This document shows, one piece after another, positions 12,009 to 13,141 of a stretch of DNA of 41,556 nucleotides; within the stretch, counting starts at the first letter, position 1; every line of letters starts with the position of its first letter. Below the pieces are notes generated by a model. That model ran no database searches and was not told where the DNA came from. It worked only from the letters and a program-made list of their open reading frames with translations. Source of the stretch: Bacillota bacterium (GTDB lineage Bacteria > Bacillota > Clostridia > Tissierellales > Tissierellaceae); assembly GCA_030602225.1 (NCBI GenBank), contig JAUWAD010000008.1:1-41556 (forward strand), read 5' to 3'. Both the position numbers and the translations under genes were made by a program.

Positions 12009-12052
12009 TATAGCCTCCAATTACAATAATAGATTTATCTAAAAAAGAGCAC

Positions 12053-12089
12053 AAAAAAGCGCAGTATTAACCAATTAGTTATACTACGC
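12053..12089 (-). terminator. Intrinsic terminator between the leader ORF and rsgA
   Basis: On the minus strand GCGTAGTATAAC (12089-12078) pairs with GTTAATACTGCGC (12071-12059), 12 pairs with one bulge and one G-U, loop of 6, followed directly by six T (12058-12053). On the plus strand the wobble becomes a C-A mismatch, so the hairpin is better on the minus strand. It could also catch rarD read-through. Confidence 0.8.
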
Positions 12090-12144
12090 AAAAATTCATA
12101 GTTAGCTCTAACTTCAGATAGGTTAAACATATTCATTGCACTAT

Positions 12145-12177
12145 TTAATTATTAAACACCTCTAATAATATTTTCAT
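12145..12177 (-). CDS. Short leader peptide ORF upstream of rsgA (MKILLEVFNN)
   Basis: Ten codons, ATG at 12177 to TAA at 12145. The AGGAGGG ribosome site (12191-12185) is 7 nt from this ATG, a near-ideal arrangement, and the ORF is the first start behind a perfect promoter. It is too short to be an enzyme; such ORFs are typical of attenuator leaders. A competing ATG at 12184 touches the Shine-Dalgarno and is unlikely. Translation is inferred from the signals only. Confidence 0.45.
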   Translation of the reverse strand: MKILLEVFNN

Positions 12178-12213
12178 AATACATCCCTCCTATCTACTAC
12201 TGTACCAAAATAA

Positions 12214-12242
12214 ATTATAATACTCTTAAACTTCTTTGTCAA
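12214..12242 (-). promoter_or_regulatory. Perfect consensus sigma-A promoter for the rsgA leader
   Basis: On the minus strand TTGACA (12242-12237), a 17-nt spacer, then TATAAT (12219-12214). Both hexamers and the spacing are the exact housekeeping consensus, placed 9 nt after the rarD stop and reading toward rsgA. Confidence 0.9.
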
Positions 12243-12250
12243 ATGATAAG

Positions 12251-13141
12251 TTACGCCTCCGCTGTTTTTAGCAACTTTAATTGAGAATATATGAATAATC
12301 CCAAAGCAGCCCAAATAAACGAAAATCCTATTAGTGAAGATAAGTCAAAGGCTTCCTTGAAAACAAATACACCTATGAAAAGAGCAATGGTTGGTGAAAG
12401 AAACTGGATGAATCCCAAAACTGATAATGGTAATCGCTTTGCACTTTCAGCATATAGTATTAATGGTGTGGCTGTTGCAATGCCGCTTAGTAAGATCAAT
12501 GGAACTAGGTAGAATGGTAGATTCCCCCTTATACCTATTCCGTTAACTTCAACAAATACCAAGTAGAATAATGAAGGCACTCCAACTATCAATGTTTCAA
12601 AGGCAAGGGCAGTTAATGAATCCCACTTTGATCTTTTCTTTAATAATCCATATACCGAGAAACTGGTTGCCAGAACCAATGCTACCACTGGAACTCTCCC
12701 ATACAATATTGTCTTAACCATTACACCGATTATAGCTAGAAAAAGACCCATTTTCTGCAATTTAGTCATCTTTTCTTTATATACAAGACTCCCAAAGGCA
12801 GTAAGCATTAATGGATTGATATAATATCCAAGACTAGCCTCCACAACAAACCCATTGTTAACAGACCATATATATAACATCCAGTTGATTGATATTGCAA
12901 TTGCAGGGGCAATAAAAAACTTAATGGTTCTTCCATCTTTCATCATCTTTAAAAAGTTCTTCCAATAATTTTTATACACCATTATAAAAACCAAAAAAAC
13001 AAAGGACCACACCACTCTATGGGCAAATATCTGATATGGTGTTATTGCACCTACTAATTTCCAATATAAAGGTAGCATCCCCCACATACCAAAGGATGCT
13101 ACTCCAAGTAATAATCCTAATTTATACTCTCTATTCTCCAT
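12251..13141 (-). CDS. rarD: RarD/EamA-family transporter
   Basis: A 296-residue membrane protein with about ten transmembrane helices in two EamA halves. The N-terminal LGLLLGVASFGMWGMLPLYW and HRVVWSFVFL segments are characteristic of RarD (annotated from its E. coli chloramphenicol-sensitivity link; true substrate unknown, drug/metabolite transporter superfamily). The start ATG 13141 has GAGG 6 nt upstream, within the preceding in-frame ATG 13153 codons, so the shorter product is favoured. Own promoter at 13173-13200. There is no terminator between its stop and the rsgA leader promoter. Confidence 0.9.
   Translation of the reverse strand: MENREYKLGLLLGVASFGMWGMLPLYWKLVGAITPYQIFAHRVVWSFVFLVFIMVYKNYWKNFLKMMKDGRTIKFFIAPAIAISINWMLYIWSVNNGFVVEASLGYYINPLMLTAFGSLVYKEKMTKLQKMGLFLAIIGVMVKTILYGRVPVVALVLATSFSVYGLLKKRSKWDSLTALAFETLIVGVPSLFYLVFVEVNGIGIRGNLPFYLVPLILLSGIATATPLILYAESAKRLPLSVLGFIQFLSPTIALFIGVFVFKEAFDLSSLIGFSFIWAALGLFIYSQLKLLKTAEA

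Follow-up and report, generated by a model that had tools for sequence, protein, structure and literature searches.

A putative ribosome-mediated transcription attenuator upstream of an accessory rsgA paralog and related leaders in Clostridia

The rsgA gene considered here lies on the minus strand of a stretch of 41,556 nucleotides from a member of the Tissierellaceae; this whole stretch is referred to as the window. The gene is preceded by a compact leader running from 12242 to 12009 (Table 1), and all of its elements were verified on the minus strand. The original prediction, made from the letters of the window, had described an exact TTGACA-17-TATAAT promoter, an AGGAGGG placed ahead of the ATG of a short upstream open reading frame (uORF) encoding MKILLEVFNN, a perfect complementarity of CCUAUCU to an AGAUAGG that overlaps this Shine-Dalgarno (SD) sequence, a hairpin with a U6 tract followed by a second U6, and an rsgA gene equipped with its own GGAGG, and each of these features was recovered. 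The promoter occurs only once in the window, compared with 0.03 occurrences expected from shuffled sequences, and transcription would start near 12207. The hairpin is not flagged by a simple consensus terminator scan; partition-function folding assigns it a probability of about 0.95-1.0. The leader of 167 nt folds better than 98% of its shuffled versions (z -2.3). At Rfam gathering score, no family was detected in the window and none of relevance in nine related loci.

Table 1. Elements of the rsgA leader and the adjoining gene in the window
Feature	Position	Strand	Remarks
-35 hexamer TTGACA	12237..12242	-	exact match
-10 hexamer TATAAT	12214..12219	-	17 nt from TTGACA
P1 helix, 5' strand AGATAGG	12189..12195	-	overlaps uORF SD; pairs with 12122-12116
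uORF SD AGGAGGG	12185..12191	-	7 nt before ATG at 12177; AAAGGAG conserved in relatives
uORF MKILLEVFNN and stop	12145..12177	-	ATG at 12177; stop ends at 12145
SD-like GAGGTG within uORF, codons 6-7	12157..12162	-
Leader core, match to covariance model R1	12109..12200	-	54.3 bits, E 7.9e-8 (whole genome)
Candidate antiterminator strand UUAACC	12121..12126	-	overlaps anti-SD; would pair with terminator GGUUAA 12072-12067
P1 helix, 3' strand (anti-SD) CCTATCT	12116..12122	-	perfect complement of AGATAGG
Intrinsic terminator hairpin	12059..12089	-	-13.4 kcal/mol
Terminator U6 tract	12053..12058	-
Second U6	12041..12046	-	3' of GUGCUC; GUGCCC or AUGCCC in relatives
rsgA SD GGAGG	12014..12018	-
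rsgA, long-type paralog, 349 aa	10959..12008	-	PF03193, TIGR00157

RsgA binds at the decoding-centre region of the 30S subunit. The protein encoded in the window is recognized as RsgA by two family models (PF03193 with 175 bits, TIGR00157 with 178 bits, where the cut-off is 100), and the residues C277, C282, H284 and C290 of the C-terminal zinc site are invariant. RsgA proteins fall into two length types, a long one of about 350 residues, to which the window protein belongs, and a short one of about 294 residues. The short type is present in nearly all relatives, with the copy in genome G001 adjoining prkC and rpe, and the long type is found in addition in 57 of the 249 genomes of the order. 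Long and short RsgA form separate clades with a support of 100 in a tree that was calculated by a quick method and contains long branches, and the window protein does not group with the prkC-linked housekeeping short type. Judged by length and tree position, the window gene is an accessory long-type rsgA paralog and not the housekeeping rsgA. The original prediction of an attenuator in front of a ribosome-assembly GTPase gene is well supported, by comparison with relatives, as far as the attenuator is concerned and needs correction with respect to the gene. As the gene encodes a long-type accessory paralog, a response to ribosome stress is the more likely reading, ahead of a feedback that acts on ribosome assembly. 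In the assembly from which the window stems, a draft of 138 contigs, only the long-type RsgA was found and both short RsgA and prkC are missing; since the two genes reside side by side in relatives and prkC is missing too, the housekeeping copy most likely falls into an assembly gap. In genome G003 of the same genus, the long-type rsgA (L205, 2156-2950, minus strand) has suffered an internal deletion that removed its middle and left an open frame of 264 aa, and the leader upstream is still recognizable with 28.5 bits. Long-type RsgA relatives are also encoded on 136 records of a plasmid collection, among them 68 from Rhizobium and 15 from Streptomyces.

The original prediction had proposed searching for the leader upstream of rsgA in related genomes, combined with covariation analysis. 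In relatives from many families, the same layout recurs, consisting of a consensus promoter, GAAAGGAG, a short uORF, UAAnUGAAUAnGGGCA, UGUGCC, AACCUUUCGUGAAU, one or two terminators and UUUUUAUGCCC, such that promoter, strong SD, a uORF of 9-14 codons, the anti-SD strand and the terminator(s) make up the conserved parts. Near-consensus promoters reside in the equivalent position at L003, L004, L005, L007-L009, L048 and others, and a promoter score of at least 10 out of 12 was reached by 13 of 30 leaders as opposed to 3.6% of shuffled sequences. When a strict rule demanding both uORF and terminator was applied, 38 of 145 long-type rsgA genes complied, compared with 0.5% of shuffled upstream sequences and none of 20 housekeeping rsgA genes. 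Covariance model R1, trained on 15 leaders with the window among the training rows, finds the window leader as its sole significant match in that genome and also detects rsgA leaders outside the training set (L047 and L058, both 1e-14; L069, 9e-12; L127, 2e-9). Over the whole genomes of 40 relatives, all twelve matches below E 1e-3 are located upstream of long-type rsgA; weak matches in G034 and G012, with no related gene downstream, were rejected as noise. By these comparisons, the leader is not a chance arrangement. The original prediction had named a lack of the short ORF or hairpin in relatives as a refutation, and the leader withstood this test. The genomes G273 and G442 contain both an rsgA2 leader and an rtcB2-prfH leader, and cultivable carriers of rsgA2 include Anaerocolumna aminovalerica (L049) and Paenibacillus turicensis (L046). 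The genes on its 5' side vary across relatives and are frequently transcribed in the opposite direction, with the leader being retained, and the hairpin can therefore hardly be the terminator of a neighbour. Outside the Clostridia clades, a recognizable member of the leader is missing from many long-type rsgA genes. Some long-type genes from Bacilli (L083, L093, L094, L075) feature different uORFs that end in SPSVYR or QPSVYL with a terminator behind them, which may represent a third type of leader. When a leader was used to query plasmids and phages at the nucleotide level, no genuine match resulted.

A second covariance model, R2, was built from 33 leaders and searched over 291 Clostridia genomes, resulting in 25 matches at E up to 1e-4. 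Sixteen precede a long-type rsgA, in one case across a small CD3324-family gene. Further matches are situated upstream of an rtcB2-prfH operon (L229; TIGR03073, 425 bits; TIGR03072, 243 bits), upstream of genes for an AAA ATPase and a DUF2201 protein in three genomes, upstream of ABC transporter genes (L232 with a half-transporter pair, L225 with a related gene, L236 with an ABC-2 type ATPase), upstream of a gene for an unassigned kinase-like protein (L233) and, at a distance, upstream of rplS (L220). The uORFs of these non-rsgA leaders end in EVFNL, EVLYI, EVFSL, EVFHL, EVFHQ, EVFFY or MVVET. At L230, L231 and L237, an operon for the AAA ATPase and a putative DUF2201 metallopeptidase is accompanied by uORFs ending in EVLYI or EVFSL. 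At L220 and L234, a leader nearly identical to the rsgA leader of L218 stands before rplS with no rsgA in between, and it is perhaps an orphan left after gene loss. As an independent check, the 291 Clostridia genomes were screened for RtcB2 with its protein family (TIGR03073), which led to four loci (L238-L241; L229). The leader is present at all four (R2 E values from 5e-10 to 1e-3), the uORFs reading MLVTIKRFYEVLLA, MLVTNYEVNDN, MTVKNINEVRCL and MTTIIYYEVFNL. All four carry GAG-GTR with Val at codon -4, even though the loci were not chosen for Val. According to the model matches, the rsgA leader is one member of a Clostridia leader class that includes the RtcB2-PrfH operon and some transporter and AAA genes. 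The occurrence of the class before rtcB2-prfH and other genes goes beyond what the window alone could have revealed to the author of the original prediction.

The pairing between SD and anti-SD, here termed P1, covaries. Among 15 sequences, 89.6% of the cells pair and 13 cells are changed on both sides, a result obtained in none of 500 shuffles, and versions of P1 slid along the sequence score far lower. With 33 sequences in an alignment that was fitted to the structure, the number of cells altered on both sides is 27 (0/500 shuffles). A compensatory pair comes from the window, U-A where all others have A-U. When SD and anti-SD partners were swapped between loci, they bound worse than the natural pairs (0/400), and pairing of the anti-SD region is likewise stronger with the terminator of the same locus than with those of others (9/400). 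P1 is somewhat favoured in these tests because pairing was partly used to choose the anti-SD sites, and for the non-rsgA leaders alone the pairing permutation is not significant (20/200). In leaders of the AAA group, P1 lies further upstream and has compensatory changes, with AUCAAGUGA/UCACUUGAU in L222 and L227 and AUCAGGUGA/UCACCUGAU in L224. A long-range helix, CUGAAUAUGGGC/GCCCAUUUUCAG, is a further candidate element of the leader.

Close to its end, the uORF contains a conserved SD-like GAGGUR, the last codon of which gives rise to Val. In 57 long-type rsgA loci, a set selected for this residue, Val is the fourth codon before the stop (MKILLE-V-FNN in the window). Glu preceding Val is encoded by GAG in 31 of 31 uORFs, compared with 375 of 1126 Glu codons in the rsgA genes, and the remaining Glu codons of the uORFs are GAA in 16 cases and GAG in two. 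At L006, ATGGAG takes the place of the ATGGTG present in relatives, which changes Met-Val into Met-Glu and retains the SD-like bases. As GAG is invariant and L006 keeps these bases despite the loss of Val, the constraint at GAGGUR looks like one on RNA rather than on peptide. The mean energy of the duplex formed with the 16S tail drops sharply to a minimum of -8.1 kcal/mol in the segment starting 16 nt before the stop, of which the selection for Val accounts for part and not all. The SD-like element precedes the last sense codon by about 8 nt, equivalent to the usual SD spacing, and it may contribute to sensing by retaining ribosomes at termination or 30S subunits after termination. Otherwise the peptides are poorly conserved.

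Folding of the rsgA leaders with ribosomes placed at different positions gives clues to the direction of the switch. A ribosome early on the uORF lowers the probability of the terminator from 0.93 to 0.36 for the second terminator of L003, from 0.95 to 0.18 in L005, from 0.87 to 0.27 in L019 and from 0.98 to 0.02 in L022, and a ribosome at the uORF stop keeps or favours it; in L011, values of 0.72 (stop) and 0.00 (early) were obtained. No terminator change occurred across ribosome states in L010, L040 and L051. In equilibrium folding of the window leader, the terminator was never lost in four ribosome states (0.94-1.0; from 0.95 to 0.94 upon early stalling). In truncated window transcripts of 142-144 nt, the antiterminator UUAACC:GGUUAA forms with a probability of about 0.5, exclusively when P1 is blocked by an early-stalled ribosome, and is then displaced by the completed terminator. 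Early stalling is the predicted ON state of the leader family, and we infer the same for the window leader. During normal growth, ribosomes would complete the uORF, P1 and subsequently the terminator would form, and transcription would end. Ribosomes held at or near the uORF start, with tetracycline-like 30S inhibitors or a damaged decoding centre as presumed inducers, would cover the SD and block P1, the freed anti-SD strand would pair with the terminator region, and RNA polymerase would continue into rsgA. The additional RsgA would have 30S subunits as its target under these stress conditions. Our confidence in the exact switch mechanism is moderate. In a sister clade (L017, L018, L020, L128-L139), the rsgA leader lacks a terminator, and the uORF ends with GGAGGU, followed by CCUCC and the rsgA SD; GGAGGU and the rsgA SD appear to compete for CCUCC, which would amount to translational attenuation of the same sign. 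By eye, Listeria monocytogenes (L180) has the same terminator-free layout.

We thus regard the leader in the window and its relatives as a ribosome-mediated transcription attenuator for a stress-type accessory RsgA paralog, with a probability of roughly three in four. Among the alternative readings, arrest by the nascent peptide deserves attention, in which the conserved Val would stall a drug-bound ribosome late in the uORF. The position of Val in the 57 loci and its presence in all four RtcB2 uORFs would fit; however, the codon choice around Val indicates a constraint at the RNA level, peptide length and the other residues vary freely, and late stalling is predicted to keep the terminator, all of which renders this mode unlikely. 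A small RNA that ends at 12053 and acts independently in trans, or a micropeptide, could draw on the leader's own promoter (an independent small RNA had been offered along with the original prediction), its length of about 155 nt and its own terminator. Yet the whole-genome model matches remain beside rsgA or a few other gene sets, and a micropeptide is hard to reconcile with the poor conservation outside GAGGUR and with the codon evidence from the 31 uORFs and from L006. This explanation is highly improbable and also not needed, although a short RNA would be seen in any case whenever transcription stops at the end of the leader. The hairpin might also belong to the upstream rarD, leaving rsgA to basal read-through: rarD is codirectional and ends at 12251 right before the promoter, and no terminator of its own is seen in between. 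Against this stand the exchange of upstream genes in every relative and the perfect promoter between rarD and hairpin, and SD/anti-SD covariation and uORF conservation would go unexplained, so we give it very little credit. Classical amino-acid attenuation, where the ribosome would stall at regulatory codons for want of a single charged tRNA, shares uORF and terminator with the trp/his layout and is hardly credible at all, given that a run of a single codon is missing, that the only common residue is Val, a by-product of GAGGUR, and that the targets are ribosome factors and not biosynthetic genes.

Several known systems are comparable with the attenuator proposed here. The tet(M) gene is named as a case of transcription attenuation in a passage of PMC5418344 citing Su et al. 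1992. The leaders of tet(M), tet(S) and tet(O) share with the rsgA leader an AAAGGAG, a short uORF (MRQGILK) with AAGGUA near its end, CUG..GGG, UGUACCC, ACCUUU and a terminator followed by UUUUUAUGCCC, and differ in the gene downstream. The resembling element lies about 247 nt upstream of the tet genes (L182-L185); the 'tetracycline resistance determinant leader peptide' annotated at L185 569-685 is a different, later frame than MRQGILK. As two rsgA-leader covariance models hit L182 and L185 in the right place and at noise level only (E 0.05-0.2), the likeness, noted by eye, does not establish common descent, and the tet leaders were not accepted as class members. HflXr of Listeria (rli80-lmo0762) is likewise controlled by a uORF-dependent terminator before an accessory ribosome-GTPase paralog (PMC6310831), but its uORF of 14 aa carries the macrolide motif RLR, responds to 50S drugs and has no sequence in common with the rsgA leader. 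In Streptomyces, the RsgA/EngC paralogs SCO6149 and SCO5211 are among the paralog pairs with a member activated by WblC under tetracycline (PMC7157823); unlike the window rsgA, the WblC/WhiB7 regulon is controlled by a transcription factor, with no leader on rsgA itself. The ToiL uORF of E. coli topAI senses several ribosome drugs, and tetracycline stalls ribosomes at its start codon (PMC12121999), resembling the proposed rsgA switch in that a uORF serves as ribosome-drug sensor with tetracycline acting at the uORF start, but ToiL controls translation and Rho termination instead of an intrinsic terminator. RtcB2-PrfH re-ligates 16S rRNA that has been cleaved in the decoding centre (PMC9223846), and the Clostridia copies share the leader class with the window rsgA at all four loci; PMC9223846 mentions neither leader nor attenuation. 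In combination, the Streptomyces RsgA paralogs, stalling by tetracycline at a uORF start and decoding-centre repair by RtcB2-PrfH point to 30S stress as the signal, by analogy.

Within the open-licence literature, we found no paper joining rsgA with a leader peptide and attenuation, none describing an rsgA or rtcB2 leader and none on lmo1332, and a broad survey of premature terminators (PMC2965389) names neither rsgA nor engC nor yloQ. This silence is weak evidence of novelty, as subscription papers were outside the search. The leader represents a new class inside a known kind of regulation, ribosome-mediated attenuation. The shared leaders support a putative link between RsgA and ribosome repair, and they suggest a ribosome-stress response in Clostridia that has not been described previously. 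More tentatively, it is possible, if somewhat doubtful, that an undescribed class of Clostridia RNA regulators co-induces a dedicated RsgA paralog and RtcB2-PrfH when the decoding centres of 30S subunits are blocked or cut. RsgA2 would in that case not be an assembly factor; it would serve in the quality control of small subunits that are damaged or have been repaired, and it would be linked to RtcB2-PrfH, a known module for decoding-centre repair. If this is true, a ribosome-stress regulon of gut and environmental Clostridia would be wired by an RNA leader instead of a protein regulator, and the second RsgA of many bacteria would find a likely function in stress, drug tolerance or 30S repair.
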